Made by a program: the position numbers and the translations under genes. The notes beneath the pieces were generated by a model that saw only the letters and a list, made by a program, of their open reading frames with translations, was not told the DNA's origin and did no database searches. Shown piece after piece: positions 11,454 to 32,025 of a stretch of 32,025 nucleotides of DNA. The stretch spans positions 1 to 32,025 of the forward strand of contig JAQCCA010000005.1 in the NCBI GenBank assembly GCA_027621155.1, in the 5' to 3' direction. Origin of the DNA: Pseudomonadota bacterium. Lineage in GTDB: Bacteria > Pseudomonadota > Gammaproteobacteria > Francisellales > Francisellaceae. Position 1 is the stretch's first letter. The number at the start of each line of letters is the position of its first letter.

Positions 11454-11467
11454 CAGAATCAATGATC

Positions 11468-11476
11468 TGTGGATAA
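11468..11476 (-). promoter_or_regulatory. consensus DnaA-box 9-mer (TTATCCACA on minus strand), copy A
   Basis: TGTGGATAA read directly; function not shown. Confidence 0.5.
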
Positions 11477-11684
11477 CTTTTCAAAATTTGCTAAATACAC
11501 GTGTTTTTGCCAACTTTTCTAAAAAATATTAATGTTTTTTATTTTTGAAAACCCTTTATTTATATGGGTTTCATGGGGTGTTGAAAAACTTTTTTCAATT
11601 ATTTTACGATTCTGAACCAAAGTTACATACTTAGACTTTGTATCGTTTTACATTACCTGCAAACAGCAATCTGCGAGGAAATCC
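11468..11684 (+). repeat. conserved tra leader element, copy A
   Basis: 217 bp from TGTGGATAA to the ATG at 11685; aligns almost without gaps to copies B and C; AAACCC/GGGTTT inverted repeat at 11549-11571. Confidence 0.9.
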
Positions 11685-12308
11685 ATGCTTTATTTTTTAA
11701 CCATAACACATCACAGCGTCATGCAGAAAATGCAAACATTTGTGCGTATTCTACTTATAGCAAGTGCGCTTTTAACATCATCACTTTGTTTTGCGCAAAC
11801 AGGAGTTGTTGAGGTTGCTAACTTTTACTGCCCGCACTGTTATTCGGCAGAAAAGTACACGCAAGACTTGCGACAAACCCTTGAAGCCAAAGGCGATAAA
11901 TTTCAGTTTGTACCTTGGTTTGTTGATGCAAAAAGCGAGCAGGCAGCGCTTATCTATCTATCGGCTAATAAGCCTATACAGGATAAGTTGCGTTTAGGGT
12001 TATTTACCGCAGCGAATGCCGGTGCTGATTTTAGCACGGGATTTAAAGGTTGCACCAGTATCAACATGTTTATGCCAGAGTATAAGGTGAAAAGCTGTAC
12101 TGATTCGCTCATGAATAATAAAGCAATTGATGTTCTTAAAAAGACAATGACGCTTTTAAAAGTCGCCTACAACGGACAGCTTAGCAATCTGGTATTCCCT
12201 ATTTTTATCGTCATTAAAGACAACAAAGTGATTGGCAAAATTAGTTATGCCGACACAAGCGACTTAAAGTCATTGATCAACAACGTTAAAACCATGCTTG
12301 AGGTGTGA
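11685..12308 (+). CDS. DsbA-like periplasmic thiol oxidoreductase
   Basis: 207 aa; signal peptide; 'ANFYCPHCYSAEKY' CPHC active site and a cis-Pro-like region 'LVFPIFIV'; start supported by the leader ending here with GAGG. Confidence 0.85.
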   Translation: MLYFLTITHHSVMQKMQTFVRILLIASALLTSSLCFAQTGVVEVANFYCPHCYSAEKYTQDLRQTLEAKGDKFQFVPWFVDAKSEQAALIYLSANKPIQDKLRLGLFTAANAGADFSTGFKGCTSINMFMPEYKVKSCTDSLMNNKAIDVLKKTMTLLKVAYNGQLSNLVFPIFIVIKDNKVIGKISYADTSDLKSLINNVKTMLEV

Positions 12309-12311
12309 ATT

Positions 12312-13382
12312 ATGGCGGATTTCAAAAAGAAATTATTTTCATTAAGTGTTGCTCTTTTTACTACGTCATTAGCAAGCAACTATGTTTTTGCAGATACCGC
12401 AATCAACCCCAACACTGGCGGGTATTATTTTTATGAGCAGAACGATCTAACACCTGCACAAAAGCTTATGCTTTCACCTCAGCGTTTGCCTCATAGTCAA
12501 ATGCCAATGCCAAAAAGTAAAAAAGAGCGATGCGATAACCCCGATCAATGGTCTGTAGACTGTGGGTTTATTGACCCAAAAGGCAACTTTGATTTTGAGC
12601 AAAAGCAAATGCATAAATTATTGCAAAATCAGTCAATGAATCCCAATGATCCCAATGCCGTTTATCAGTGGCAGCGTTTTAATATGTGGATGGTCAACCA
12701 GGCGACACAGGCGGCTTATATGTCGGCATATAACCGTTTGCAGCATCCTGATATTAACCCTGCTATTAGCTTGCCAACGTCACAATTTGGTAACTTATTA
12801 ATGAAAGGCTTAAATGAAGCAGGTGAAAAAGCCATGTTTAAAAAGCTTGCTGAATCGAGTATTCTCATATTCTTCACGCGTCACGGTGCTGAGAATACCA
12901 AGTATTACTGCCCTGTGTGTAAGGCGATGGCTTCAATTATGCTTATGGTGCAGCATGATACAGGTATCACAACTTATGAAGCTTCCTTAGATGATAAGCA
13001 CTTTGATGTGTTTAAACACTTTGAAGATAACAGCAAAAAGGTTCGTGTTTTTGACCCTAAAACAGGACAGTATCTTAATGAAAGCCGCTCAACTATTATG
13101 GCGCAATTACTACACGTTAAAATTGTGCCGACTGTGTTTTTATTCCTCAAAGGTGATCCAAAAACAGGAAAAGGGGCGACAATGGTTCGTGTATCTATTG
13201 GCGCGGAGTCCGCAGACACAATAGAAACGCGCATTTTGAACTTTGCTCATGCCATTCAAAAGGCATTCACCGAGCAGGCTAAAAAAGGCTTGCAACAACA
13301 AGGAGTTATTTCTCCAGACTTCTCAGATACAGAACCTAATTTCTGGGCAACGCATAACACAGCTACAGAGGGAGAGGCATGA
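12312..13382 (+). CDS. traF: TraF, F-type pilus assembly protein (thioredoxin fold)
   Basis: 356 aa; 'GGYYFYE' N-terminus, 'SILIFFTRHGAENTKYYCPVCKAMASIM' with CPVC. Confidence 0.88.
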   Translation: MADFKKKLFSLSVALFTTSLASNYVFADTAINPNTGGYYFYEQNDLTPAQKLMLSPQRLPHSQMPMPKSKKERCDNPDQWSVDCGFIDPKGNFDFEQKQMHKLLQNQSMNPNDPNAVYQWQRFNMWMVNQATQAAYMSAYNRLQHPDINPAISLPTSQFGNLLMKGLNEAGEKAMFKKLAESSILIFFTRHGAENTKYYCPVCKAMASIMLMVQHDTGITTYEASLDDKHFDVFKHFEDNSKKVRVFDPKTGQYLNESRSTIMAQLLHVKIVPTVFLFLKGDPKTGKGATMVRVSIGAESADTIETRILNFAHAIQKAFTEQAKKGLQQQGVISPDFSDTEPNFWATHNTATEGEA

Positions 13383-15043
13383 TGTTATTCAAATCAATCA
13401 GTTCAACTAAAAAGCAAAGTAATAAAAAATTGAATAAAAGATACTCATTCAAAAAATCGCTATCAACCGCATTATTGTGTGGTGTTTTTCTGGGAACAAG
13501 TATTAATCAGGTCTATGCCGATGACTTCTCAGATGCCTTTAACTATTTAATGTCTAGTGGCAATCCCGCTATTTATAACACAGAAGTAAGAGGGTTTGCG
13601 ACAGGTGGTAGTTTTGATTTAATTATTCCGCAACGATCTGTCACCATTATTTCTCTCACTGCGCCATCAATTGACGTTGGTTGTGGTGGTATTTCAGCTT
13701 TTTTAGGTGGTTTTAGTTATATTAACCTAGATGTATTTATTAATCTTTTAAAAAATATTGCCACGAGTGCCTTGGGGTATGCCTTTATTCTGACGCTTGG
13801 CGTATTATGCCCTATTTGCAAGAGTGTGATGGAGGGCTTACAAAAAGCCGTACAAATGGCAACTTCATTAGCGCTTAACTCGTGTAACTTTGGTGTTGGT
13901 TTAGTGAATGAAGCAATAAATAGTTCAGACTCTCTCAAGAAATATGTCAATAGTGCAGGTGCTGCGGCTGATAGTAACTCTGGTCAAGATAATGGCTTTT
14001 TATCATCGATGAATAACATTGCAGGTGATTTTAGCAAAGGCATGGATAAATTTAACAATTGGGTAAATAAAATCAGTAACACTAAACTTCAAACGCAAGA
14101 GCGTAATAAAATTGGTCAGGGCGCACATATGTGGAATGCGTTACCAGAGCTTGATGATGCCCAAAAATCCTTACTATTATCATTAACAGGGGACACAAAC
14201 ACCTATATACAAAGTGGTACACAACCCATCATTGTTGAGATCATGCCAACGCTATCAGCAGATGAGCTAGCCAATTTACTCGTCTATGGTGCGGATTCAA
14301 ACAATAATCAAAATGTTCATTTATTGGGATGTACGCAATACGATAACACAGCAAAAGACTTTTGCACCAAGGTAGAAGAAGTGCCTGTTAAAAACTCATT
14401 CTGGGCTAAGTCATCACAGGGCAAGACCTTTGGAGGTATTGATTTATTCCAGTATGGCTATTATGGCGCTGTATATGCCTTACTTATGCAAGCTATATAT
14501 GCGGCTGAAAGCAACGAAGACTTAGGCTACAGCTCAGGGTTTAATTTGCAGTTACCTGCTCAATATGGCGCAGCAACATTACACCCTAGTTTTAGCAAAG
14601 CGCAAATCCTTGGTTTCTTAAACTCATCTCCTTTGCCGTTATATCAGGCGGTGAATATTGCGGGATGGTCGTTATCAGGTGGCGCAGATGTCGCAAAGCA
14701 GATGATCAGTAATGTCGCCTTATTAGTTGCCAAACAGTTCGCTTACTCATTTATTGAGCATGATGTTTTAGATCTTACCAATGCAACACAAACGGGTTTA
14801 AAGCAAGGTGAAAATACTGGTAGCTCAGGCGTTAATAAAAAACTCTATGCTGATTTAAAAAAATCGCTTGATAGCATTCGTATGCAGATAACGCAAAATG
14901 TTACTGCCATTTCCAGTGACTTTGAATTTCAGCAAGGTTGGATTGGTCAGCTTCATCAAGTCCAGTCTGAGCTTTATTCGCAGGCAGTACAATCTGGTAT
15001 TGCAGGCAACATGGCGTTCACCAATAAACTAAGCGTTCAATAG
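13379..15043 (+). CDS. traH: TraH, conjugative pilus assembly protein
   Basis: 554 aa; 'DVGCGGISAFLGGFSYIN' and 'LCPICKSVMEGLQ' TraH motifs; ATGA overlap with traF. Confidence 0.93.
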   Translation: MMLFKSISSTKKQSNKKLNKRYSFKKSLSTALLCGVFLGTSINQVYADDFSDAFNYLMSSGNPAIYNTEVRGFATGGSFDLIIPQRSVTIISLTAPSIDVGCGGISAFLGGFSYINLDVFINLLKNIATSALGYAFILTLGVLCPICKSVMEGLQKAVQMATSLALNSCNFGVGLVNEAINSSDSLKKYVNSAGAAADSNSGQDNGFLSSMNNIAGDFSKGMDKFNNWVNKISNTKLQTQERNKIGQGAHMWNALPELDDAQKSLLLSLTGDTNTYIQSGTQPIIVEIMPTLSADELANLLVYGADSNNNQNVHLLGCTQYDNTAKDFCTKVEEVPVKNSFWAKSSQGKTFGGIDLFQYGYYGAVYALLMQAIYAAESNEDLGYSSGFNLQLPAQYGAATLHPSFSKAQILGFLNSSPLPLYQAVNIAGWSLSGGADVAKQMISNVALLVAKQFAYSFIEHDVLDLTNATQTGLKQGENTGSSGVNKKLYADLKKSLDSIRMQITQNVTAISSDFEFQQGWIGQLHQVQSELYSQAVQSGIAGNMAFTNKLSVQ

Positions 15044-15054
15044 GGAGAGGATTT

Positions 15055-18018
15055 ATGGCAAGCGCTTTTGATATACAGGTTTTAGGTTCAGGGCACATGT
15101 ATGTGTCATTGTTGCAGAATATTTCAACAGTAATGCTGCATTCAAATCTTTATAACGCTTTTATTTGTATTATGCTGTTTTTAGGATTTTATAGCTTTGT
15201 TTTTGCGGCAGCCAAGCACGGAGGTATCTCGGTTCAAGCGGTGATGCAGAAGTTTTTAGCATGTGTCATTTTGATTTATATCATGACAAAAGTATCGGTA
15301 AACGTGCTGATCATCGATGAATTCGATGCCAAACAAACGCAAGCGGTTCCTGATGTTCCGCTAATATTGGCATTGCCTGAATGGTTTGTGCATAAGATTG
15401 GTTTTTATGGCGCTGAAATTATTGGCGAGTTGTCCTCAAAAAGTGGGTTTATGCCAACAGACTTAACGCCAACTAGTGGTGTGCCACTATCAATAGCGCC
15501 CGCTATGATTGCTGATGCGTCACAGTACGAGATAGCCGATCCAATATTTAAAGCTTCACTTTCAAGATATATGCTTGATTGTATATTGCCCAATAAAAAC
15601 TTTAATGTCGGCAACTTATATACTTCAGGCACCTTGTGGAATGACATTAAAGACATGCAGCCAAACAAGGCATTATCCACCGTCTGGTTTGGGGATTCTG
15701 GCACACCGAATACGACAGGCGAAGTCCTAAGCTGTGGCGATGCACAAAAGAAAATCGCGCCTGTTATGGCACAGCTTTCTAACAAAGTCACTGATGATTT
15801 TATCAAGCAAAGCACCGTATCGATTGCCCCTAACGTTTTTCAAAGTATCATCCAATATTATGGTGGACAGGGTGCGACTGGCTCAGACATGATTTTACAA
15901 TCTTCAATGATTGGCATGTTAAACACAACCATTCCAGAAGCCATGATTGCATCAAGCAAAAGCCAAGTGCTTTATGATCAGTTGGCATCACAGCGCGCAG
16001 CAAAACAGGCGTTTTCATCTTGGTCGATTGAAGCATCATCTTTTAGCAGCACCTTTGGATATCTGTTGGTGGTTATTGATGTTTTGGGGATTGTCCTTGG
16101 GATTATCGTTTTTCCATTTGTTTTTGTGCCATTTTTCTTTTCACTGGTTAGAAACTATTTAATGCTACTGGCATTTATCCCGCTAGCAACCATTGGCTTA
16201 GCCGTTGCCGCAGTGATTGGGACTTATGCTAACAAAGGGTCTTTGGCTATGCTTGATGGTGGAGGGCTAACGCTATCCAATCATATGGCTGTCACGCAGG
16301 CTGCAATCAAAGCCTATCAATCTATTTACATCTATCAGTATATGTCAGTAACCGTTGCCGCAGGTTTGGCTTTTGGGATGACGTTTATTGGCTCTCGGAT
16401 CATGTCTGGTGGCAATGCAATGGAGTATGCCAAACAAAACGCAGCACAAGCAGCACAAAGCAGCTACACAGGTGCAGATACTCGTAGCATGGCAAATGAC
16501 ACGATGAATAAACATAATATTGCCACGGAAACTTTAGCGGGTGTTTCAAGCTACAAGCAGAGCCATACTGGCGGAAATCCATTGATTGACTACCAAGGCG
16601 GTGGTGTACAAACTAGCTCTAATGGTGCGATGATAAGAAATCAGACAACGACAACAACGACCAGTACACACAGCGATAATTCAGGAGTCACTAATACTGT
16701 TAATAACGATACATCACACAGTGACAAATACAGCACAGGTCAAACGATTAGCCAGTCGCTAGCAAGCAATGAGGCAATTAAAACAGCGCTAAGTGGCAAA
16801 GGTTTAAGAGGTGCGGGATTATCCGCAGCTTATGACGGATGGTCAGCAATGACGGATAACATGCCAGATATGGTGCCATCGATGGTTAAAGATCAAATGG
16901 CATCACAGATTAAAAGTGGCGTTAGCGATACGCTCAAAGCAGATGAATATGGTCAGATGGCTAATCAGGCAAAACTGGATGGCAATACTCAGCTCTATGA
17001 TCAGTACAGTCAAACATCGCAAGAATATAAAACCTCAGCCCAAGATCATTATGCTGACGCGGTTAAAACAGGTGAAGCAGCCAAAGCAAGCAATAGTGAT
17101 CTATCAGGTTGGGATGTTGCCAAAGAAGTTGCTGTAGGTGCAGGTACGCTAATTGCAGGTGCTGCTATTGATGCTGCGGGTGTTGTTGGAGAAGTTGGCA
17201 CACTGGGTGCTGCTACACCATTAGTTGCAGGCGCTGAAATTGCCGGCACATCAATGATTGCAGCAGGCGCAGGTAAAATTATGCAATATGGTGGACGACT
17301 TGCTAGCGAAGCCACAGGCTTAATGACTGGCGCAATGGAAAAGCTTGGGCTGAAAGGTGCATCAAAATCAGTTACAGAGGGAATGGAATCAACCATTGCA
17401 CGTCAAACACATACGTTTGATGAAGCCAAAGGCACATGGATTAAAGATTCTGCGCGTGTGCGTGATCTGAAAAATGAAACCGTTGGGCATGGTGAGCGCT
17501 TTGATGTGAAGCAATATGAAAAGGATTTAGCAGATGCTCAAAAAGGCGGTTGGCAACGTTTTAAAGAAAGTAGAGCAGGTAAAGTTGCAGGCGGGTTGAT
17601 GAAAGAGTTTAATAATGGTTATGAGGAAAGTTGGGGTGGAACCACTTATTCCCAACTAGACACCAAAAATCAGCAGCAACATAACGTTTCAGATGATAGA
17701 ACTAGACGCTTTGGCGCGGGATACTCTCAAGGCTCCAGTGACAGTATCACTACGACATCGACAACGACTTCAACGGTTCAAATGCCTACTTACCCAAGCC
17801 AAGGCAAAACGGCATTGCAATTAGCGCAGGAAAACTATGATAGAACTTTTGGAAATCAAGTTGCTACGGGTGATATAATGAATGATCAACGTGATACATC
17901 TGATTATGGTAAGCACCAACAATCATTTGATGGAAATTCCGATAAAGTGAAAGAAAAGCTTAATGATAGGGCAGGATCAGCTTGGCAAGTTAGGAAAGTT
18001 GATAAAATGTCAGATTAA
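15055..18018 (+). CDS. traG: TraG, mating-pair stabilisation protein
   Basis: 987 aa; N-terminal multi-TM domain, long soluble C-terminal part; follows TraH. Confidence 0.88.
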   Translation: MASAFDIQVLGSGHMYVSLLQNISTVMLHSNLYNAFICIMLFLGFYSFVFAAAKHGGISVQAVMQKFLACVILIYIMTKVSVNVLIIDEFDAKQTQAVPDVPLILALPEWFVHKIGFYGAEIIGELSSKSGFMPTDLTPTSGVPLSIAPAMIADASQYEIADPIFKASLSRYMLDCILPNKNFNVGNLYTSGTLWNDIKDMQPNKALSTVWFGDSGTPNTTGEVLSCGDAQKKIAPVMAQLSNKVTDDFIKQSTVSIAPNVFQSIIQYYGGQGATGSDMILQSSMIGMLNTTIPEAMIASSKSQVLYDQLASQRAAKQAFSSWSIEASSFSSTFGYLLVVIDVLGIVLGIIVFPFVFVPFFFSLVRNYLMLLAFIPLATIGLAVAAVIGTYANKGSLAMLDGGGLTLSNHMAVTQAAIKAYQSIYIYQYMSVTVAAGLAFGMTFIGSRIMSGGNAMEYAKQNAAQAAQSSYTGADTRSMANDTMNKHNIATETLAGVSSYKQSHTGGNPLIDYQGGGVQTSSNGAMIRNQTTTTTTSTHSDNSGVTNTVNNDTSHSDKYSTGQTISQSLASNEAIKTALSGKGLRGAGLSAAYDGWSAMTDNMPDMVPSMVKDQMASQIKSGVSDTLKADEYGQMANQAKLDGNTQLYDQYSQTSQEYKTSAQDHYADAVKTGEAAKASNSDLSGWDVAKEVAVGAGTLIAGAAIDAAGVVGEVGTLGAATPLVAGAEIAGTSMIAAGAGKIMQYGGRLASEATGLMTGAMEKLGLKGASKSVTEGMESTIARQTHTFDEAKGTWIKDSARVRDLKNETVGHGERFDVKQYEKDLADAQKGGWQRFKESRAGKVAGGLMKEFNNGYEESWGGTTYSQLDTKNQQQHNVSDDRTRRFGAGYSQGSSDSITTTSTTTSTVQMPTYPSQGKTALQLAQENYDRTFGNQVATGDIMNDQRDTSDYGKHQQSFDGNSDKVKEKLNDRAGSAWQVRKVDKMSD

Positions 18019-18575: not shown

Positions 18576-18830
18576 TTAGTAATGGAATCGGCATTTAACT
18601 ATACTCAATATTCCATCCTCATATTTATATACAAGCCTGTGTTCACGATCAATTCGCCTCGACCAATATCCTGCCCAATTATGCCTTAGTGGTTCTGGAT
18701 CACCAATACCATCAAATGGATTGCGCATTGTGTCCTTGATGATTTGATTAATACGCTTTAGCCTTTTTTTGTCATTTTGCTGCCAGTATAAATAATCATC
18801 CCAAGCATGTGTAGACCACGCTAAAATCAT
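18576..18830 (-). CDS. yoeB: YoeB-family toxin (Txe/YoeB mRNA interferase)
   Basis: 84 aa; 'WSTHAWDDYLYWQQNDKKRLKRINQIIKD..RNPFDGIGDPEPLRHNWAGYWSRRIDREHRLVYKYEDG..I.KCRFHY' is the full YoeB signature. Confidence 0.96.
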   Translation of the reverse strand: MILAWSTHAWDDYLYWQQNDKKRLKRINQIIKDTMRNPFDGIGDPEPLRHNWAGYWSRRIDREHRLVYKYEDGILSIVKCRFHY

Positions 18831-18833
18831 TTT

Positions 18834-19091
18834 CTAATCTTCAATTAGCTTATGCTTTACACCTAAGCCTTGCTCAATTTCATTGATAGATTCATTTAAT
18901 CTTTTAGCATTATTAGCGCTAGACATTAAATAGGCAGTTTCTTCGTAAGATCGATAATCATCAAGAGACATAACAACGATTGCTGCTTTTTCGTTACCTC
19001 TAGTTACGATCATTGGCTTATGATTGCTCGTTACTCTATCCATCGAAGCAGCAAGTTTACTTCTAAACTCACTGAAATTTATAGTATACAT
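18834..19091 (-). CDS. yefM: YefM-family antitoxin (Phd/YefM)
   Basis: 85 aa; 'MYTINFSEFRSKLAASMDRVTSNHKPMIVTRGNEKAAIVVMSLDDYRSYEETAYLMSS' is canonical YefM. Confidence 0.96.
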   Translation of the reverse strand: MYTINFSEFRSKLAASMDRVTSNHKPMIVTRGNEKAAIVVMSLDDYRSYEETAYLMSSANNAKRLNESINEIEQGLGVKHKLIED

Positions 19092-19244: not shown

Positions 19245-22112
19245 GTGCCAATTTCATCAATAAAAAAATTCAGTAAGAATAAAATTCAATTAGCTAATGA
19301 CGCAATAATAGATATATTGGACATGAACAATGTGCATGTCCGTAGCCTATATGTATTCGGATTGATAAAGTTTGAAGTCAATGAAGAACAGTTTAGAATC
19401 CTAGTACCAAATAGTAGTGTCACAAAAATAATATCCATACTCGAAAAGTTTTATCGCACCACAGCTAACAAAGAAGAGTTTTATGCTAAATTCAGCAAAA
19501 AACACATGAGTATTAAACATGCGATTGATTTATTTTCTAAAATGCAACGAAGCTATATAAATAGCAAGCTTTATAATGCATATCTGGGAGAACATAAAGC
19601 TGCTTTGACGTATGCCTCGAAAGTTACTAGGACATACGGTTACGATGATTATAAAAAATGTATAAAACATGCTAAATTAATATTAAAGCCATCCTATCTT
19701 GAACAATGTAATAAGCATTACATTTCAAAATCAAAGCAAATCTATTCGCAGTTTTTCAAAGAGGTTGAAAGTTCACCATTAAACGAAGATCAGCAGGATG
19801 CTGTATTAACTGATGAAGACATTACAATTGTTCTTGCTGGTGCTGGCAGTGGCAAGACTTCTGTTATATCAGCTAAAGTTGCTTTCATATTAAATAATTA
19901 TCTAGCTAACCCAGATGAAATTCTTGTTATGGCATTCAACGCAGATGCAGCAATGGAATTAAAAGAGCGAATTTCTAAAATAGCAGATCATGGGAGCGGT
20001 GTTGAGATTGGTACTTTTCACCGAATAGGCAATAAGTACCTTAGAATGGATAAAAAAAACACTACTTTGGTCGATGAAAATAAGATTAAAAAAAAGGCGA
20101 TACTTTCACAACTCTTAATATCACGATTTAAATCCGATGATTTATTTTTTTATAAATACCTAGAGGCATTCTACATCTGTAATTGTCATATTGAGGCTCA
20201 CAAACACAAAACTAAAAAAAGTTATACGGAGGCATGTAGATATGCTGATTTAGTCACATATCAATCAGAGACTGTAAAATCAACGGAAGAGCTATCAATA
20301 GCAAACTTTCTGTATATAAACGGGGTGAACTATATTTATGAAAAAAAGTATGAGCATGTAGATTACAACTACACTCCTGACTTTTACTTACCTGATTACG
20401 ATATTTATATTGAGCATTATGGTGTTGACAGATCGTATAGAGCGCCAAATTGGTTTAGCAATCCTAAGAAGTACGCTGACGATATTTTTCGTAAGAGAAA
20501 AGTCCACTTAAAGCATGATACAATTTTAGTTGAGACATATAGCTACATGTTTTATGAGGGAAATATCTTTGATGAGTTAAGGTCAAGGCTTACAGCATTA
20601 GGTGTTGAATTTAAAAACGCCATAAAATATGACTCTATTGATAATCTCTTGGCTTTAGAAAATAAAGCGTATAAGTTGCATCAAACATTTGATATTGTTT
20701 GCGGGACTATAAGTCAATATATGGCAAATAATCTAAGCTATGAATATTTATTAGATAAAGCCAACAAACATTCCTCCAGAGTGAAGCTCATGCCTTATTT
20801 GAAAGTATTCCCAGAAATTTACAATATGTACATAAGCTATTTGTCAAAAAGAAACATGATTGACTTCGATTTAATGATCATGGAAGGGATTGAAAATATC
20901 AAATCATTTAACACTAGCCATTATAAGTATATTATTGTTGATGAATGCCAAGATTTTTCAAAGGGACGGTTGGATATAGTTAAGGCATTTAAGGACAATA
21001 GCCATGAGAATGTAAAATACTTTTTTGTTGGAGATGACTGGCAGTCTATAAACAGGTTTGCTGGCTCCAATATGGTTTTGATGCAATCAAAAGAAGATCT
21101 AGCTATGTTAGGTTGCCAAAAAACAGTTAAATTAAAAATGACCTATAGATACCCGCAATCAGTTGCGGATGTAAGTAGCTCATTCATAACTAAGAACGCT
21201 CGACAAATTAAAAAAGAAATTTTATCCCCAAAAATCTCTAAGGGTAAGAGTTTCCATATAAGACACCTTAAGAAAGGAGTTAGTGAGATTGATGAAATCC
21301 TTAATTGCGTTGAAAATATACTTGCAGGTAAAGATTCTTCAATAGTGTCAATATTAATACTTGGGAGATATGCAAAGTATACGTTAAACGGTGATCAAGC
21401 CTCAGGCAATAACTTTTGGATGAAAAAATTTCAGGAAATTGGATATCAGGTCGAAACCAATCACAACGATAAATTTGTCTGTATAAGCAAAAATGGCAAG
21501 AAAGCAAAAATAAGAGAGCTTACTATTCATAAAAGCAAAGGACTTGGGGCAGATCATGTTATCGTGAGAGGCTTAAGTGGCATTATAAGAGGATTTCCAT
21601 CTAAAATAGAGAGCGATCCAATAATAGAGCTTTTTTTGCCATACGTTGATGATTATCCATATTCTGAAGAAAGAAGATTGTTTTATGTTGCTATTACTAG
21701 AACTAAAAATGATGTCTACATGGTTGTTGATAGCAAAAACCCATCAATATTCTCCCTAGAAATTCAAAGGGACTACAAGGAGTACATAGACTCTAACCAA
21801 GAGTTATGTTCAAATTGTGATATTGGCTATTTAAGTATTTCACCTAAAGGCTTTAAAAAGTGTAGCGCCTGCGGATTATCACTATTTCGTTGTTCTAAAT
21901 GCAACACAGGGTGTATTTCACCAGTATATAACGATGCTAAATGCAGCAATAAAGAGTGTGATAATGTAGCCAAAAAATGCCCATCATGCAATATAGGTTT
22001 TTTAGTACCTAGAGAATCTAACAAGGGTGATAAAATAAGTAGGTTTTTTGGATGTTCAAATTATGCTACTGAAGTAAGGTGCAGGTATACCGATACCGAA
22101 AGTGTATTTTAA
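19245..22112 (+). CDS. UvrD/HelD-like SF1 helicase with apparent PD-(D/E)xK nuclease motif and Cys-rich zinc-ribbon C-terminus
   Basis: 955 aa, GTG start; Walker A 'LAGAGSGKTSVIS', 'IVDECQDFS', 'VGDDWQSINRFAGS', 'TIHKSKGLGADHVIV', 'RRLFYVAITRTK'; 'YTPDFYLPDYDIYIEHYGVD'; 13 Cys in the last ~100 residues. Confidence 0.9.
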   Translation: MPISSIKKFSKNKIQLANDAIIDILDMNNVHVRSLYVFGLIKFEVNEEQFRILVPNSSVTKIISILEKFYRTTANKEEFYAKFSKKHMSIKHAIDLFSKMQRSYINSKLYNAYLGEHKAALTYASKVTRTYGYDDYKKCIKHAKLILKPSYLEQCNKHYISKSKQIYSQFFKEVESSPLNEDQQDAVLTDEDITIVLAGAGSGKTSVISAKVAFILNNYLANPDEILVMAFNADAAMELKERISKIADHGSGVEIGTFHRIGNKYLRMDKKNTTLVDENKIKKKAILSQLLISRFKSDDLFFYKYLEAFYICNCHIEAHKHKTKKSYTEACRYADLVTYQSETVKSTEELSIANFLYINGVNYIYEKKYEHVDYNYTPDFYLPDYDIYIEHYGVDRSYRAPNWFSNPKKYADDIFRKRKVHLKHDTILVETYSYMFYEGNIFDELRSRLTALGVEFKNAIKYDSIDNLLALENKAYKLHQTFDIVCGTISQYMANNLSYEYLLDKANKHSSRVKLMPYLKVFPEIYNMYISYLSKRNMIDFDLMIMEGIENIKSFNTSHYKYIIVDECQDFSKGRLDIVKAFKDNSHENVKYFFVGDDWQSINRFAGSNMVLMQSKEDLAMLGCQKTVKLKMTYRYPQSVADVSSSFITKNARQIKKEILSPKISKGKSFHIRHLKKGVSEIDEILNCVENILAGKDSSIVSILILGRYAKYTLNGDQASGNNFWMKKFQEIGYQVETNHNDKFVCISKNGKKAKIRELTIHKSKGLGADHVIVRGLSGIIRGFPSKIESDPIIELFLPYVDDYPYSEERRLFYVAITRTKNDVYMVVDSKNPSIFSLEIQRDYKEYIDSNQELCSNCDIGYLSISPKGFKKCSACGLSLFRCSKCNTGCISPVYNDAKCSNKECDNVAKKCPSCNIGFLVPRESNKGDKISRFFGCSNYATEVRCRYTDTESVF

Positions 22113-22136
22113 TCTACCATATTGACACACCAACTC

Positions 22137-22145
22137 TGTGGATAA
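22137..22145 (-). promoter_or_regulatory. consensus DnaA-box 9-mer, copy B
   Basis: TGTGGATAA read directly; function not shown. Confidence 0.5.
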
Positions 22146-22353
22146 CTCTCCAAAATTTGCTAAATTCCCTATTTTTGGTAGTCAATCATAAAAATATTTA
22201 AATTTTTTTGTTTTCTTAAACCCTTATAAAAAAAGGGTTTAATCAAGGCATAAAAAACTTTTTTCAATTATTTTGCCATTCTGAACCAAAGTTACATACT
22301 TAGACTTTGTATCGCTTTAAATTACTCGCAAACGACAAATTGCGAGGAAACTA
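22137..22353 (+). repeat. conserved tra leader element, copy B
   Basis: 217 bp from TGTGGATAA to the traW ATG; 79 contiguous nt (22252-22330) identical to copy C; TAAACCCTT/AAGGGTTTA perfect 9-bp inverted repeat 22217-22241. Confidence 0.92.
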
Positions 22354-23076
22354 ATGCGACATTTACTCATAAAACTAACCACGCTTTCACTCATAGCTAA
22401 TCAAGCATTAGCTTATGATTTAGGCGTACATGGCACAACTTTTCCAATTAAAGAGATTAATCTAAAAGACGTTATTGTCCAACAGGGCAGTGCCGTTGAT
22501 TGGGATGCTGTTGGCAATAAGATAAAAAAGTCAGCACATGGCTATTTGGATGACCTACCTAATCAGACATCAACCATAAATACTGAAAACAAAACCGTTT
22601 ACTATGATCCATCTATTAAGATGAATCGTGATATATATACCTCAAGCGGTCAACTTCTTTATAAAAAAGACACATGGTTTAATCCGCTTTGGAAAACACG
22701 TCAAATCTGGGCACCTAACATGCTTGTGATTGACGGTGAGGATAAAGCGCAAGTTAAATTTGCTTTGGCTGCGCTTAAACAACATCGAAACGATCTTGAA
22801 ATTGTCTTTACCAATGGCAAACCGACAGAGCTTGCCAAAAAAATCAACGTGCCAGTTTACTATGCCAATGCGCCAATGGTTAAACAGTTCCATATTCATA
22901 GCGTGCCGACAATGATTGGTCTTGGGGTTGGTGATCATTATTACGATTTAATGCAGATGCAGTTTAGTGAGCCGTATTATTTGGGGTTAATTGATAAATG
23001 TTGGCATGGTTGCACGGATAAAGTCATTCAATCCTATATTCAAACACACGCAAACAAAGGGGACGATCATGTTTAA
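22354..23076 (+). CDS. traW: TraW, F-type pilus assembly protein
   Basis: 240 aa; signal peptide then 'YDLGVHGTTFPIKEINLKDVI' (TraW N-terminus), 'TWFNPLW', 'VPTMI'; followed by TraU. Confidence 0.88.
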   Translation: MRHLLIKLTTLSLIANQALAYDLGVHGTTFPIKEINLKDVIVQQGSAVDWDAVGNKIKKSAHGYLDDLPNQTSTINTENKTVYYDPSIKMNRDIYTSSGQLLYKKDTWFNPLWKTRQIWAPNMLVIDGEDKAQVKFALAALKQHRNDLEIVFTNGKPTELAKKINVPVYYANAPMVKQFHIHSVPTMIGLGVGDHYYDLMQMQFSEPYYLGLIDKCWHGCTDKVIQSYIQTHANKGDDHV

Positions 23077-24088
23077 AAAGTTTACAAAAGGAAAAAAAGC
23101 ACTAATTGCATGTTCATTTATACTTAGCCTGTTATCAGTGCAGCAAAGTTTTGCTGTTGGTGAAGCTTGTCACGGACGTTTTTTAAATCCAATTACTGAC
23201 ATTAACTGGAATCTTGTTTTTCCGATTAAGGTTGCGGGTGTGCCTATCTCTGGTGGTGGCAGCAATGAATCACCGTTAGCGATTACCTCGCCTGTTTGCA
23301 TTTGCCCGGGACACATCTTCGGTATACCGACTGTGGGAATCATGATGACATTCCATGAGCCACTTTACATCGAGGAAATTGCGAGAAACGCAGGCTGTTT
23401 ATCATCAATTGGAGGTGTCTCCATAATGGAGGGTTATCATAACGAGGACTCGGAGCATAAAGAGGGGGCTGGCGGTATCAGTCGTTGGCAAATTCACTGG
23501 ATGGAGTATCCAGTATTTGCCATTCTCCAGCTTTTTCAAGACCTAACTTGTGTTTCTGGCGGTGGGTTTGCAGTTGCATATATGACTGAAATTGATCCAA
23601 CTTGGCAAAATGATTTATGGGGGTCTGTGATGTCACCTGAGTCTGTTTTGTTTGCTAATCCTATTGCTCAAAGTGCTTGTATAGCGGATGCAATTTCATC
23701 TACTTTTCAGTTTCCATTAGATGCGGAGTTTTGGTGTGCAGGTACGTGGGGCAGTGTTTACCCATTTACTGGTAATTCAAATGTGGACGTTGGAGCTGAC
23801 CAATCAGCCGAAAATGTCGGTGCTAAGTTTATGGCAAAACTAGCACGTGTTGGCATGTTATGGGACACCGTTGGACAGTGGGCGATGTGTTCACCTGTGC
23901 CTAATCCTATCTGGGTAAAGAGTGAGTTTACGATTGACCCTGTGTATCCCATGATACGCCACGGCATGGGTATGCCAATCGGTGCAGCGCCTGCGGTTTA
24001 TTTAAATATTCCGCCACAGCAGTATCCGAGCATGGAGAATATCAATCAGCTGATATTTCAGGAGCAGCAATGTTGCATACATATTTAA
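23069..24088 (+). CDS. traU: TraU, F-type conjugal transfer protein
   Basis: start revised from 22991 to ATG 23069 overlapping the traW stop; 'CHGRFLNPITDINWNLVFPIKVAGVPI' and 'CICPG..FGIPTVG' TraU signatures. Confidence 0.93.
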   Translation: MFKKFTKGKKALIACSFILSLLSVQQSFAVGEACHGRFLNPITDINWNLVFPIKVAGVPISGGGSNESPLAITSPVCICPGHIFGIPTVGIMMTFHEPLYIEEIARNAGCLSSIGGVSIMEGYHNEDSEHKEGAGGISRWQIHWMEYPVFAILQLFQDLTCVSGGGFAVAYMTEIDPTWQNDLWGSVMSPESVLFANPIAQSACIADAISSTFQFPLDAEFWCAGTWGSVYPFTGNSNVDVGADQSAENVGAKFMAKLARVGMLWDTVGQWAMCSPVPNPIWVKSEFTIDPVYPMIRHGMGMPIGAAPAVYLNIPPQQYPSMENINQLIFQEQQCCIHI

Positions 24089-25002
24089 AAGACCAGTTAT
24101 TATTAACCAACGATCTATATAAAACCTTATTAAGCAGCCTAAGGTTTCAATTAAGAATTAAGTCAAACTGGCTTAACATATTAATGGTTATTACTATGTT
24201 AATGACTATAGCTATAAGCATTTTGTTAGCAGTAGATATGATTCATTTTAAAGCTTTATGGTGTTTAGGATTATGCATTTTGTTTTGGTTTATAAGCCCA
24301 CGTGATAGTAAAGCAGAAAGCATCTCATTGTACTTTATGTTGGTGTTTTTTAGTTTTACGTTTTGGCTGCCAATACTCGCTAATCTGCCTTATAGTCCAC
24401 TACCTACCCAAGATCATTTAATGGCATTAATAGAGTCACCTATAAAGGGTTTATATATCACATTGGTTGATTTTATAAATAAAAATCAACTTTATCAAAG
24501 TGTGGCATTGTTCTTTTATAACAGTGTGCAGTATTACCTTATTTTAGGGGTTATATATGCATTTATATTCGAGCATGCCAATATAAAAAAATATGTTTTT
24601 ATTTTTTTACTGTGCATTTTATTTGGCACCATCATAAGTTACTTGTTACCTGTAATAAGCCCAATAGTGAGTTATGGTAAATCGCATTATAACGACTATA
24701 TGGTCAATCTATTTAATCATTATATCGCAATGCGTAATGGTGCTAATTTAGTTATTTATGACGAGGTAAGTATGCCATCATGGCACTACTTATTTGTGTT
24801 ATGTTCAATGACGCTAGTAACCCAAGGAATTGCCAAATACGTTTACCGCTTATATGGCGTTATTATTTTAATATCAGTTGTTCTTTTAGGTTGCCACTAT
24901 CTTGCTGATATTGCTGCATCTATCACTTTATTTTTATTAATTAGCTCCTTATCTCGAAAATTAGAAACTAACATAAAACCATTTAAAATGGAGAAAATAT
25001 GA
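24070..25002 (+). CDS. polytopic membrane protein with PAP2/Aur1-like phosphatase motifs
   Basis: 310 aa, multiple TMs; 'MPSWHYLF' (PSxH) and 'GCHYLADIAAS' (H-x3-D) resemble PAP2 motifs C2 and C3; overlaps TraU and TrbC. Confidence 0.6.
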   Translation: MLHTYLKDQLLLTNDLYKTLLSSLRFQLRIKSNWLNILMVITMLMTIAISILLAVDMIHFKALWCLGLCILFWFISPRDSKAESISLYFMLVFFSFTFWLPILANLPYSPLPTQDHLMALIESPIKGLYITLVDFINKNQLYQSVALFFYNSVQYYLILGVIYAFIFEHANIKKYVFIFLLCILFGTIISYLLPVISPIVSYGKSHYNDYMVNLFNHYIAMRNGANLVIYDEVSMPSWHYLFVLCSMTLVTQGIAKYVYRLYGVIILISVVLLGCHYLADIAASITLFLLISSLSRKLETNIKPFKMEKI

Positions 25003-25931
25003 AATTATTATTTGCATTAATGGCAGTATATACGCCATTTTTATACGCCTTAAACAATCCATATTCACCAGATGAAATAGGTGTTTATAATCAATTAAAT
25101 GGTGATTTAAATACCAATAAAAAACAATTAGAATCAAAAAACAAAGGCATTAATGAGGCATTTAAACTGTTTCAAAATAGCAACATAGAACATCCTAAAT
25201 TAAGTGATAAATACATCGATATCGCTTCTGAAATATCGGGTAAAAGCAAGGGTATCATTACTGAGAATATCGGGAAAATGCACCATGACAAAAAGACAAC
25301 TAAAATCTATTATTTTATCAGTTTCTCCATGCCAGAAAGCTTAATAAAAGCCTATCTTTTAGATGCTATTTGGACTGGTGGCAGTGTTATTATTAAGGGC
25401 ATATTGCCTAAGTATGACAATATTTATAAGTTTGTTGGTGATAAGTTAAAGCCACTTGTTTATGGTAATCAAATGGCAGCTATTGAGATTAATCCTAATC
25501 TTTTTGAAATGTATAATATCACCAAAGTTCCGAGCATTGTTGTTACTCAAAACAACAAACTAAGCGGATGCAATCCATTAAATGATACTGGGTTTAGTGC
25601 AACCGAAACGTGCGCTCAACTACCAGAAAAAAGCTACTATAAAATATCTGGCAATATTGATACTACGCAACAACTAGAAACCATTAGAGACGCAGGATGT
25701 CCTTATGTTACTTCATTCATTAAACGCTTAGATGGGCTGCAAGATAGAATGCAAACAAGTGGATTTTCATTAGATGGAAATAACACAGATTGGGCGAGTG
25801 CGCCAATGCCATTAAGTAAAGATCAGATTAAGCGAAATTTGCAAATGATAGGGCTGGATATAAGCGGGATGTCAGTTGGCAGTAGTGAGCTTATAGATCA
25901 AATAAAGTCACGTGGAGATATGCCCAAATGA
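24999..25931 (+). CDS. trbC: TrbC, F-type pilin assembly protein
   Basis: 310 aa; 'IYYFISFSMPESLIKAYLLDAIWTGGSVIIKGILP' and 'YNITKVPSIVV' TrbC_Ftype signatures. Confidence 0.85.
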   Translation: MKLLFALMAVYTPFLYALNNPYSPDEIGVYNQLNGDLNTNKKQLESKNKGINEAFKLFQNSNIEHPKLSDKYIDIASEISGKSKGIITENIGKMHHDKKTTKIYYFISFSMPESLIKAYLLDAIWTGGSVIIKGILPKYDNIYKFVGDKLKPLVYGNQMAAIEINPNLFEMYNITKVPSIVVTQNNKLSGCNPLNDTGFSATETCAQLPEKSYYKISGNIDTTQQLETIRDAGCPYVTSFIKRLDGLQDRMQTSGFSLDGNNTDWASAPMPLSKDQIKRNLQMIGLDISGMSVGSSELIDQIKSRGDMPK

Positions 25932-26392
25932 TGTATTTTGAGAAGACTTCAATTCCGCATCATTTTCCTTCACCTTTTCCGCTAAAAATACAGGCTATAA
26001 AGCCTTTTAGTGTATGCTTTACAGGTATATTAGAAAAATCGGGATTAGGTGCTGTTTTAGATGCAAAAAGCACATGCTATTTTTTAGGGAATTGGCAATG
26101 GACTGGCTTTCCTTTTAAAATTCCCTCAATAAGTCCTTCTGATTTTCCGCTTTTGGCTAGCCATTTAGCCCATATACATAAAGTATTTAATAAGATTTAT
26201 GTTCACTATATATCTGCTTTAAAAAGCAATAAAAACACGAGTAAACGCAAGAGAAACTCGCTTGTTTGGTCAAAAGGAATAGCTTTCCCGTTGTTTTTCC
26301 GCTTATTGGTCTCATTAAATAGTCTTATAAAAGCTATATACCACAAGCCTTTTAGTGAAATAGCTTCATATAGAGTTAAGTTAAAAATTTAA
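25928..26392 (+). CDS. hypothetical protein, ORFan
   Basis: 154-aa ORF with ATGATG overlap to trbC stop; no recognised family; unusual composition. Confidence 0.45.
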   Translation: MMYFEKTSIPHHFPSPFPLKIQAIKPFSVCFTGILEKSGLGAVLDAKSTCYFLGNWQWTGFPFKIPSISPSDFPLLASHLAHIHKVFNKIYVHYISALKSNKNTSKRKRNSLVWSKGIAFPLFFRLLVSLNSLIKAIYHKPFSEIASYRVKLKI

Positions 26393-26421: not shown

Positions 26422-27198
26422 ATGAATATGTATAAGAGTCAAGAAATCGGAGTAGATAATAGAAGAGTGCTAAACAGGGCGCAAGAGCAGATTGTTGAGT
26501 ATCTGGCAAGGGTGCCATACATAACCCCACGTCACTTAGTTAATTGCTTTCATGTGGCAAAAACACAAGCGTACGATAACCTAAATAAACTGTCTGAAAT
26601 GGGGTATGCGAAAAAGACAACTTTCTCAAACGCAGAGGAATTTTACGCTAACATTAACATTTATAAAATCACCAAAAATGCTTTTGATGAAGTCACAAAA
26701 GATGAACCTGATAGCGAATATTTTCAAACAGGAACACCGAAAATAACAGCAGAAACTCCGCATAGAGATATGCTCACTTTATTTATTGGTTATCTGATTA
26801 ATAATCACTATTCATTTGATAACATCAATAATGAAGTAAGTCGATTTTATGGTAAGCATAAAAAAATCTGTTCGGACATTATAGCGGTTAAAGGAAACAG
26901 TAAATATGCCTTTGAATATGATCGTACTGCCAAAAAGTCTGAGTATTATAAATTGATTATGACCACGTACCTATATGCCATTTATCTTAATGAGATAACC
27001 GCATTAACTTATATCGTTAATAACTCGACTAACACGGAACATTTCAAAGAAAAAATACTAAAAGAGGTTCAATTTATTTACGACCCTAAAACAGGACAAA
27101 AGATTGATATGACTAAGCACTTTGATCGTATCTTTGTAAAGAATATTGATCAGTTTAAATATGAGGTACAACAACCACTGGCAACGTGGGAGGTTTAA
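26422..27198 (+). CDS. candidate MOB_C-type (CloDF13 MobC-like / replication-relaxation) relaxase
   Basis: 258 aa; N-terminal winged-HTH-like region, then nuclease-like 'CSDIIAVKGNSKYAFEYDRTAKKSEYYKLI' (D...E-x-D...K); directly followed by a T4CP; start may be ATG 26428. Confidence 0.6.
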   Translation: MNMYKSQEIGVDNRRVLNRAQEQIVEYLARVPYITPRHLVNCFHVAKTQAYDNLNKLSEMGYAKKTTFSNAEEFYANINIYKITKNAFDEVTKDEPDSEYFQTGTPKITAETPHRDMLTLFIGYLINNHYSFDNINNEVSRFYGKHKKICSDIIAVKGNSKYAFEYDRTAKKSEYYKLIMTTYLYAIYLNEITALTYIVNNSTNTEHFKEKILKEVQFIYDPKTGQKIDMTKHFDRIFVKNIDQFKYEVQQPLATWEV

Positions 27199-27202
27199 GA
27201 CA

Positions 27203-29719
27203 ATGTTTGCAATAGATAAGCGTTTAATTAAAAAACATGACGAAAGTACTTTAGCTTATCTTGGTCGTGTTATTATAATACCGCTGCTTTTAATTATTTC
27301 TGCTGTTTGGTATTTTACTCATGAATACTATTACTTACCTGCTTATGAGTGGTTAGCTGATCTTGCTGCTAATAGTTCCTATGGATTATATAAATTAATT
27401 GCTTTATCAGTATTTTTATTTCTACTGCTTTGTTATCTTAAATTTATCCGATTAGATTATGGTGCAAATCAAAAAACCAAAGGTAAATATTTTTATTTAT
27501 ATCGCTATATATGCTTTGCACTAGAGTTTGTTTTAGTAATTAATACGATGTGCTTTTTATTTGGCATTATTGGTTATTTAAGATTTTCAATTGTGACTAC
27601 AATTTATCATCTAGGTTGGCATTTTGAAGAGTTCACTGCAACCGCAATATCGCATTATCTTAATGAATATTTTGCAGGTAATAATTACACTGCGGGAGAC
27701 GTTTTTTTATATTATTCATTTTTGCCCGCAACCATTATTTTATTGGCTTATAAATTGTGTTATAACTCAATTAGAGATATGTTGTTTAATCGTTTTAATG
27801 TTCGCCTTTCTAGGAAAATGCAGAAACGTGTTAATGACAATTATAAAAAAGAAAACATAACCATGTCTGATGTTGATGAGGAATACAAAGAACTAGAGAA
27901 AGTGGCAAAAACAAAAGTATTTGACCCACTTAAATATGTGTTTGATAAAGACATGTATAAGTTAATTACTAAAGCACGATCAAATAATTACACTCAATTA
28001 AATTTACCAGAAAGGAAGTTAAATAGTGTGAGTAAATTATTGGCGGATCACTTTAAGTCAAACGGATTACTTGTCGGATTAAACCAAAATGATGAGCCTG
28101 CTTATATCAGTTATGACACATGGCAGACATCGCATACCTCAATTTGTGGTCTAACAGGTAGAGGAAAGGGGGTTGTAAGTGGTTGCTTATTAACACAAAA
28201 TATCTGGTTAGGTTTTGCCAATATTATTTGTGATCCTAAAAAGAATGGTGGGGATCAATGGTTGTTCTATGTGATGCACGAAATGTTGCAATGTTATAAC
28301 GCGATATATGGTACGAACCGTAAAGTTCACTACATCAATTTAAACATCAGTGAGCCGCAGTTAAATCTGCTAAAAGGGATCACCAAGCTTGAATTTAAAG
28401 AGTGCTTATCCGCAGGTTTTAACCTTGTAATGAAAGATACCGATGCTGACCATTATCGCAAGAATGATATTGAGCAGATGGAGTATTTATCAGAATTAAT
28501 CGATAGCGTTAAGTCCATGCCAGAGTATTGGGAGAATCTTTATGCTAACCATTTGGATGACTTGTTAAACCCATCCTCAAAAATCAAACCAGAGGAAAAG
28601 GTTTACGATGATATTGTCAAAAATCATATTTCATCTTTCAGTCGTGACTTGCGTTCGTTAGCTTTGATGCCTGTACTTAGAACTGACGAGGGTATTGATC
28701 TTGAAGCAGCTATTTTAAATGGTGATGTTATTTATATTAACGGTTCATCTGACAGTACAAATATTAAACGTCTACAAAAGATGCTGCTACATCGTTGCAT
28801 TCAAATTGTCGCTAAAACAGCGAACAACAAGCAACGTCCACATGTGACTTTCTTCATTGACGAGACAACTTACTTTTTATCACGCCCCTTGAAAACGGCA
28901 GTAAGCACTATTCGTGACCAACGCGCCAATTTCATTTTCAACTATCAAGGCATTGATAACTTACGCGATGTTTCAGAAAGTGACCCATCATTAGATGGCG
29001 CTGTGATCCAGTCGGTCATTTTAAATAACTCAGGCACCACCTTGGTTTACAAGGTTAATCATGAGCCAACACGTCAGTGGGCAGCAAAGATGACAGGCGA
29101 AAAGATTGTTAATGCAGTCAGTAAAGAAATCGAGGGCGTTTCGGGTGATTATGGCACGATTGATGCCAGTGGCAAGTTGAAGATTAACCCGAAAAAAGAA
29201 TCTAAATTTCACGCTAACGTATTTGGTTTACTGCCTAAGCGCGTAGGGGTGATGTTTGGTGATGATCCCGCACAGTTGATTTTTACCAGTCCAGTTGGTG
29301 TTGAGCCTGATTATGATTCAAGAGCAATTACGCGTTATAACACCTACAAAATGAAGTCATATTTTTTCAGATTGCCAAGTGTTGATGGTGAAGCACCAGA
29401 AGACATAAATAACGAGCCAAGCGATATTGAAGTAAGTAAAGCAAACGAGGTAAAAAGTGTAATTAACACAAGGAAAGTCAAAACACCAAATCAAGCAAAC
29501 AGCACGGTAAAACCAAAAGCATTTAAGCCCAAAACCAAGAAAGGAGAAACGCCAGAAGTAGAGCAAGATGATCTACCAAGTATTCATGATATTTTTGATC
29601 TTTTTGATGACGAGTCAGAAGTTAACGCAGTATCCAATGTGGCGGAAAAACCAACAGCAAGTAATCAAAAATCGATAAATCCAAAATTCCCGACCAAGGT
29701 TAAAAAAGCCAAAAAATAA
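27203..29719 (+). CDS. type IV coupling protein (TraD/MobB-like ATPase)
   Basis: start revised from 27146 to ATG 27203 after the relaxase stop; N-terminal TMs; Walker A 'ICGLTGRGKGVVSG', Walker B 'VTFFIDETTYFL', 'RDQRANFIFNYQG'. Confidence 0.85.
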   Translation: MFAIDKRLIKKHDESTLAYLGRVIIIPLLLIISAVWYFTHEYYYLPAYEWLADLAANSSYGLYKLIALSVFLFLLLCYLKFIRLDYGANQKTKGKYFYLYRYICFALEFVLVINTMCFLFGIIGYLRFSIVTTIYHLGWHFEEFTATAISHYLNEYFAGNNYTAGDVFLYYSFLPATIILLAYKLCYNSIRDMLFNRFNVRLSRKMQKRVNDNYKKENITMSDVDEEYKELEKVAKTKVFDPLKYVFDKDMYKLITKARSNNYTQLNLPERKLNSVSKLLADHFKSNGLLVGLNQNDEPAYISYDTWQTSHTSICGLTGRGKGVVSGCLLTQNIWLGFANIICDPKKNGGDQWLFYVMHEMLQCYNAIYGTNRKVHYINLNISEPQLNLLKGITKLEFKECLSAGFNLVMKDTDADHYRKNDIEQMEYLSELIDSVKSMPEYWENLYANHLDDLLNPSSKIKPEEKVYDDIVKNHISSFSRDLRSLALMPVLRTDEGIDLEAAILNGDVIYINGSSDSTNIKRLQKMLLHRCIQIVAKTANNKQRPHVTFFIDETTYFLSRPLKTAVSTIRDQRANFIFNYQGIDNLRDVSESDPSLDGAVIQSVILNNSGTTLVYKVNHEPTRQWAAKMTGEKIVNAVSKEIEGVSGDYGTIDASGKLKINPKKESKFHANVFGLLPKRVGVMFGDDPAQLIFTSPVGVEPDYDSRAITRYNTYKMKSYFFRLPSVDGEAPEDINNEPSDIEVSKANEVKSVINTRKVKTPNQANSTVKPKAFKPKTKKGETPEVEQDDLPSIHDIFDLFDDESEVNAVSNVAEKPTASNQKSINPKFPTKVKKAKK

Positions 29720-30869: not shown

Positions 30870-30904
30870 TCAAAATCAGGAGCAAATCTGAAAGCTAACC
30901 GCCT

Positions 30905-30913
30905 GTGGATAAC
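30905..30913 (-). promoter_or_regulatory. consensus DnaA-box 9-mer, copy C
   Basis: TGTGGATAA read directly; function not shown. Confidence 0.5.
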
Positions 30914-31119
30914 TTTTAAAAATTTGCTAAATTCTCTCATTTTTACATCCATCCCTAAAAATATTTAATTTTTTTCACTTTCTTAAACCCTTTATTTATA
31001 AGGCTTTTACTGGTGTTTAAAAAACTTTTTTCAATTATTTTGCCATTCTGAACCAAAGTTACATACTTAGACTTTGTATCGCTTTAAATTACTCGCATTG
31101 CAATCGCGCAGGAGTTGTT
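30905..31119 (+). repeat. conserved tra leader element, copy C
   Basis: 215 bp from TGTGGATAA to the ATG at 31120; 31019-31097 identical to copy B 22252-22330. Confidence 0.92.
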
Positions 31120-32025
31120 ATGCGAAGTAGTTACAGTAGATTTTTATATTCATTCCCTTTGTTTGTCATGGTATCGAGTATGCCATTTAACACAGGCTTT
31201 GCACTTGATAATGATATTGCCAATATGTCATTGTCCAAGTTGCAGGGCATCAATAGTGGCAATGCCGCTAACACGCAAGATGCGCTAGGTGTTGATGCTC
31301 ACGCTGTTGGTGATCAATCCGCAATGTCGGGTGACTCAATGGGCGCTGTTGGTAAGCGCTTTGCGAATATGACGCTAATAATGTCACCGCAATGCAGTAG
31401 TGATAGTGTTTTAAATGGCTTAGATGGCGCTATACTTAAGTTTCCATGCCAAAGTATAGCTACTGCTATTACAGGCGTTATTTGCTTGCCTAAATTAGCA
31501 GATTGTTCAGATGATAAAAACTTTGCACCAATTACAGTGCCAGTTGGCTCTAGCAAAAGTATCTATGGTTACGATTTCAGCGCAAGCTGTCAGGCAAATT
31601 GTACAATCAGAATGGCGCAAAATGGCGCTGTTATTACCAATGCTGACACCATCAATAGCCAGTCCAAGCAAGAAGCTGCTAAAAATGATCAGTACAACAT
31701 GGTCGCCCAAGGATACGTAGGTAAAGATGGCTATTCACAGCAACAGGCTTATCTATGGTCATTTGGCAAAGGTGGGGATAACGATGTTATTGGTACGCAG
31801 TGCATTAATGGCGCTGCGGGTTACTTAGACAGTGGAGAGTATCATACGTGCGATAACTCGCAATCTGGTTCATTCAAAACAGGATGCCATGAGGAAAAGA
31901 CATGTACTGATTGGAAAACAACAAGCCGTGATATAGATACCTATCATCAATGTACGTTGAAAGCAAAGGTTAGTGATGTTCAGTGCGACAAGGTTCCTGT
32001 TGTTACGGTTCAGGAAGTGGTTATC
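31120..32025 (+). CDS. traN: TraN-like Cys-rich exported mating-pair protein (truncated at the window end)
   Basis: open from ATG 31120 to the last base (302 codons), absent from the ORF track for lack of a stop; signal peptide, many Cys, 'CHEEKTCTDWKTTSRDIDTYHQC'; leader ends at this ATG. Confidence 0.7.
   Translation, partial: MRSSYSRFLYSFPLFVMVSSMPFNTGFALDNDIANMSLSKLQGINSGNAANTQDALGVDAHAVGDQSAMSGDSMGAVGKRFANMTLIMSPQCSSDSVLNGLDGAILKFPCQSIATAITGVICLPKLADCSDDKNFAPITVPVGSSKSIYGYDFSASCQANCTIRMAQNGAVITNADTINSQSKQEAAKNDQYNMVAQGYVGKDGYSQQQAYLWSFGKGGDNDVIGTQCINGAAGYLDSGEYHTCDNSQSGSFKTGCHEEKTCTDWKTTSRDIDTYHQCTLKAKVSDVQCDKVPVVTVQEVVI

Follow-up and report, generated by a model that had tools for sequence, protein, structure and literature searches.

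In SXT/R391 ICEs and IncA/C plasmids, SetCD and AcaCD, respectively, switch on several F-type tra operons through operators adjoining the -35 element (PMC4344509, PMC4207636). By analogy, these regulons are the closest known kind to the locus described here, an F-type transfer region on contig C67 of a metagenome-assembled genome (MAG). In both cases F-type transfer genes are split into operons, and in the known systems the promoters each answer one master regulator. SetCD- and AcaCD-dependent promoters share a short motif by the -35, whereas C67 contains copies of nearly the whole ~217-bp leader. On the IncA plasmid pRA1, the leaders of traL, dsbC, traN, and traF have no long stretch in common (the maximum is 51 nt at 73%, E = 0.055). 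A search of the MAG (90% complete, with the element cut) found no FlhC-family activator (PF05280), the E. coli control being positive, and no other candidate regulator emerged. No paper describing repeated tra leaders was found in the open-access literature.

Frpo/ssi promoters (PMC11541004) resemble the C67 leaders in that long non-coding leaders precede several genes of one conjugative element; the C67 leaders differ in lacking a consistent ssDNA fold and in preceding genes of the transfer apparatus. pRA1 carries a family of ~127-bp repeated leaders (24682-24807, 29004-29130, 33432-33489, 38318-38383, 41638-41674, and 46984-47090), up to 99% identical, that extend to the start codons of genes for an AAA-ATPase, a DUF3150 protein, and other non-tra functions. 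The resemblance to C67 is that near-identical leaders within a single F-type plasmid reach the start codons of genes unrelated to each other; the differences are that the pRA1 leaders stand before non-tra genes, are unrelated in sequence to those of C67, and fold strongly as ssDNA (one leader at z -4.3). The pRA1 repeated leaders are reminiscent of Frpo-type promoters.

The window analyzed here covers contig C67 in full (32,025 bp); both ends of this contig are cut, and the MAG it comes from comprises 286 contigs totaling 2.35 Mb. Its gene order begins with traL, traE, a trbI/traB-type gene, traV, traC, and an S26 peptidase gene, followed by leader A (217 bp, 11468-11684, plus strand) and, directly after it, module A (dsbA-like, traF, traH, and traG; 11685-18018, plus strand). 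The interval between traG and leader B holds a minus-strand yoeB-yefM toxin-antitoxin pair (18576-19091) and then a UvrD/Rep-type helicase gene (19245-22112) immediately 5' of leader B; in the sister element considered below an HTH/Gp49-type pair lies near the same place as yoeB-yefM, and pRA1 traF is likewise immediately preceded by a UvrD-domain gene. Leader B (217 bp, 22137-22353, plus strand) precedes module B, consisting of traW, traU, a PAP2-family gene, trbC, and one unnamed ORF (22354-26392, plus strand); beyond trbC the named genes are MobC-like, coupling-protein, and thioredoxin-fold genes and a 78-aa ORF. Leader C (30904-31119, plus strand) is followed by module C, a traN-like gene truncated by the contig end (31120-32025, plus strand). 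No leader copy lies ahead of traL/E within the window.

A repeat search of the window returns a single three-copy direct-repeat family (11466-11695, 22135-22364, and 30902-31131), and leader-against-leader blastn gives E = 1e-43 to 1e-53, bearing out a first-pass annotation of this DNA that had described a non-coding leader present three times and ending at the start codons of tra modules. Two of its measurements change: leader C begins at 30904 with a length of 216 bp (not 30905 and 215 bp), and the contiguous identity between B and C is 80 nt rather than 79; the approximately seven differences of A in this stretch are exactly 7 of 80. Overall pairwise identity among the three leaders is 77-81% by global alignment. 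All three copies in the MAG are non-coding and sit directly 5' of tra modules, and a search of the entire 2.35 Mb found no fourth. As previously noted, the downstream genes are not paralogues, encoding DsbA-like/TraF/TraH/TraG, TraW/TraU, and a TraN-like protein, the last 75% identical to its counterpart in the sister element.

Conservation along the leader is patchy, with a 5' block, a variable middle, a 3' core, and a gene-proximal end. The first 37 nt (block 1) are 81-84% identical between copies and contain the invariant CTGTGGATAACT, and the 77-nt middle is only 58-69% identical. The 80-nt core (11582-11661 in A, 22251-22330 in B, and 31018-31097 in C, all plus strand) is 91% identical between A and either other copy (73/80) and 100% between B and C (80/80); the contrast in identity between core and middle is significant (Fisher p = 1e-4 to 1e-9). 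In the last ~22 nt, A and B match at 16 of 23 positions and extend their similarity to 4 nt before the ATG, but comparison with C gives 4 of 22. The earlier statement that similarity stops at the start codons is thus valid for A and B and not for C, whose last ~22 nt are unrelated; B and C do have in common ATGCGA across the start codon. A leader peptide was considered and rejected, since no long open frame reaches the gene start.

The core includes a predicted σ70-like promoter on the plus strand, TTTACG-N17-CATACT in copy A (11603-11631) and TTGCCA-N16-CATACT in copies B (22273-22300) and C (31040-31067), placed 46-47 nt 5' of the ATG. Bare matches to the σ70-like consensus are at chance level for the composition of the region (about one expected per region), and it is placement within the conserved core that supports the promoter prediction. 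Adjoining the predicted -35 is a AAAAAACTnTTTTCAAnTnTTTT box (22252-22274 in B and 31019-31041 in C, plus strand), which has one mismatch in copy A; the box occurs in B, C, and both leaders of the sister element and in no other fetched locus, the pattern having been derived from these same sequences. An invariant dyad, CAAAGT-N11-ACTTTG, spans the predicted -10 (11618-11640 in A, 22287-22309 in B, and 31054-31076 in C).

The reading favored here, with a probability of about 0.72, is that each copy is a promoter-operator cassette that would restart transcription at its tra module; the three modules, which other genes keep apart, may thereby answer one shared signal. The earlier proposal of a shared promoter/5'-UTR cassette survives in its promoter part, which is the best reading because there are only three copies, each is 5' of a tra module, and the strongest constraint falls on a promoter-sized core; its 5'-UTR part is weak, with RNA structure unconserved and the RBS-proximal segment of C different. 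In the proposed mechanism the core would act as the promoter, with TTGCCA or TTTACG as -35, CATACT as -10, and transcription beginning ~47 nt 5' of the ATG. Immediately 5' of the -35, the A/T box may bind the RNA polymerase α-CTD or an activator, and the dyad over the -10 may bind a repressor or an activator; the distal DnaA box and palindrome described below would be accessory sites confined to the C67 element.

The same MAG contains a sister element on contig C55, whose TraU is 91% identical to that of C67 and whose DNA is 67-77% identical across most of the transfer genes. C55 has its own ~205-bp leader, one copy ending at the start of traW (25765-25969) and a second running from 33253 to the contig end; the two copies are 99% identical (125/126 nt). 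The contig breaks inside the second copy (33378), and contig C88 starts with the last 62 nt of the leader (62/62 identical) followed by a traN-like gene encoding a protein 75% identical to that of C67; from this leader overlap, C88 is inferred to continue C55. Because C55 breaks within a repeated leader, similar leaders may go unseen at the contig ends of other MAGs. No leader precedes dsbA in C55, the junction that matches copy A. Two further observations concern these transfer loci: the C67 coupling protein (27146-29719) is just 23% identical to that of the sister, compared with 91% for TraU, so the coupling-protein region seems to have been replaced; and a third F-type transfer locus in the same MAG, on contig C149, is distant (TraU 36%) and has no repeated leaders.

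Between C55 and C67 the leaders can hardly be aligned, so each copy resembles the others of its own element far more than it resembles its counterpart at the matching junction of the other element. The best alignment covers ~27 nt and includes the AAAAAACTnTTTTCAAnTnTTTT box next to the -35; homology of the leaders rests on this match, which is equalled by 4-8 of 500 shuffles under strict alignment. The pattern implies either concerted evolution, by gene conversion of ancestral copies, or independent duplication into the same two junctions. The copies would have arisen through duplication, and their likeness may be kept by gene conversion or strong selection.

Beyond this MAG, a survey by self-comparison of 36 transfer-gene loci from the source MAG and other genomes finds long leader repeats at gene starts in three elements: C67, C55, and G054, from another gammaproteobacterial family, in which a 180-nt leader (93% identical) stands before traA/L/E (137-aa ORF-traL-traE) and traD-traI. 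Shorter upstream motifs are repeated in G128 (61 nt, 84%, before two transfer-region ORFs) and in G274 (67 nt). Many of the loci are fragments, and the survey frequency is therefore a rough lower bound. On these comparisons, repeated tra leaders are uncommon yet recurrent, and their sequences are unrelated. One traU homologue (G285:C50:17946-19010) contains two in-frame stop codons. The C67 leader DNA has no blastn match in plasmids, its 32-nt core has none in viral contigs, which also yielded no TraU relatives, and no full copy occurs in 32 family genomes, where there are only 26-37-nt matches, most to the palindrome and several in coding DNA. A search with a sequence model of the leader gave only weak matches in related loci, and those inspected fall within ORFs.

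The likeliest alternative, though itself improbable, is that the leaders are DnaA-linked regulatory or replication elements; because the distal half (DnaA box, A/T-rich DNA, and palindrome) is origin-like, they would link DnaA to tra transcription or to synthesis of the complementary strand. Block 1 opens with a perfect DnaA box, TTATCCACA, on the minus strand of each copy (11468-11476 in A, 22137-22145 in B, and 30904-30912 in C). CTGTGGATAAC occurs four times in the MAG, once per leader and a fourth time 5' of dnaA, where 14 nt equal copy B. The variable middle contains the palindrome AAACCCTT-N7-AAGGGTTT, perfect in B (22218-22240) and with one mismatch in A (11549-11571) and C (30985-31007); it was rejected as an intrinsic terminator, there being no T-run and no terminator found by a terminator scan. 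Palindromes within two mismatches of the leader's are found 5' of dnaA in 5 of 20 family genomes, compared with a mean of 0.08 in a simple shuffle control. In the family, exact palindromes are rare; outside the leader, they are located upstream of dnaA (G015:C1:282201), beside a replication-like iteron array and an AAA_25 gene (G011:C3:375891), and, in two further genomes, within or near coding DNA. Against a DnaA-linked role, however, each leader copy has only one DnaA box, exact boxes in the genome are in slight excess (32 versus 24 for a control pattern), the leaders of the sister element and of G054 have no DnaA box with fewer than two mismatches, and conservation is greatest in the promoter core rather than in the DnaA-box half. 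The DnaA box is treated here as an accessory feature of the C67 element.

Folding predictions bear on two further alternatives. A structured leader RNA (riboswitch, thermometer, attenuator, or sRNA target) governing translation of the three modules would fit the RBS hairpin CTCGCAA/TTGCGAG of copy B and the extension of conserved sequence to ~20 nt before the ATG. This reading is very unlikely: the leader has no Rfam match, RNA fold z-scores of the 3' part are -3.4 in B but 0.2 in A and -0.1 in C (-1.7, -0.9, and +1.0 in the 5' part), the covariation term is unfavorable (+1.34 kcal/mol), and the RBS-proximal part of C is unrelated to the other copies. The hairpin is not kept in A or C, and since folds are inconsistent between copies it is not a shared feature. 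With folds unconserved and the RBS region of C unrelated, the conserved unit looks like DNA, a promoter plus operators, rather than a riboregulator. The other alternative is an ssDNA promoter of the Frpo/ssi type, in which the leader, once folded on the T-strand entering the recipient, would drive early expression there. Such promoters are common in leading regions (PMC11541004), the pRA1 leaders are of a similar general kind, and copy B has a strong plus-strand ssDNA fold (z -4.9); the chance of this reading is nevertheless slim, as the fold is not strong in A (z -1.7), C (+1.2), or the C55 leader (0.3), and the leaders precede mating-pore and mating-pair genes rather than early establishment genes. 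Least probable of all is a passive dispersed repeat or mobile-element remnant with no regulatory role, which could accommodate copy A being an insert relative to C55 but not copies that, instead of scattering without relation to tra starts in the manner of a many-copy MITE, number just three in the MAG, all at tra starts, with uneven constraint along each copy and the same arrangement in the sister element in nearly unrelated sequence.

The promoter-operator reading is thus preferred: a duplicated cassette probably wires the split tra operons together. A broader proposal, tentative and improbable as a whole, is that F-type elements repeatedly evolve whole-leader duplication, homogenized by gene conversion, to wire split tra operons, and that in C67 the DnaA box and palindrome would tie transfer genes to the host replication initiator. 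What is new is the duplication of whole leaders, their homogeneity within an element as against divergence between elements, and the recurrence of the arrangement in an unrelated element.

Conjugation operons need joint switching even where cargo genes lie between them. In known F-type systems it is provided by short operators that serve a master activator; here whole leaders are copied. Leaders that are alike within an element and almost wholly diverged between sister elements of one genome provide a measurable evolutionary signature; the leader set offers ready sequences for a regulator search, and the possible link through the DnaA box is directly testable.
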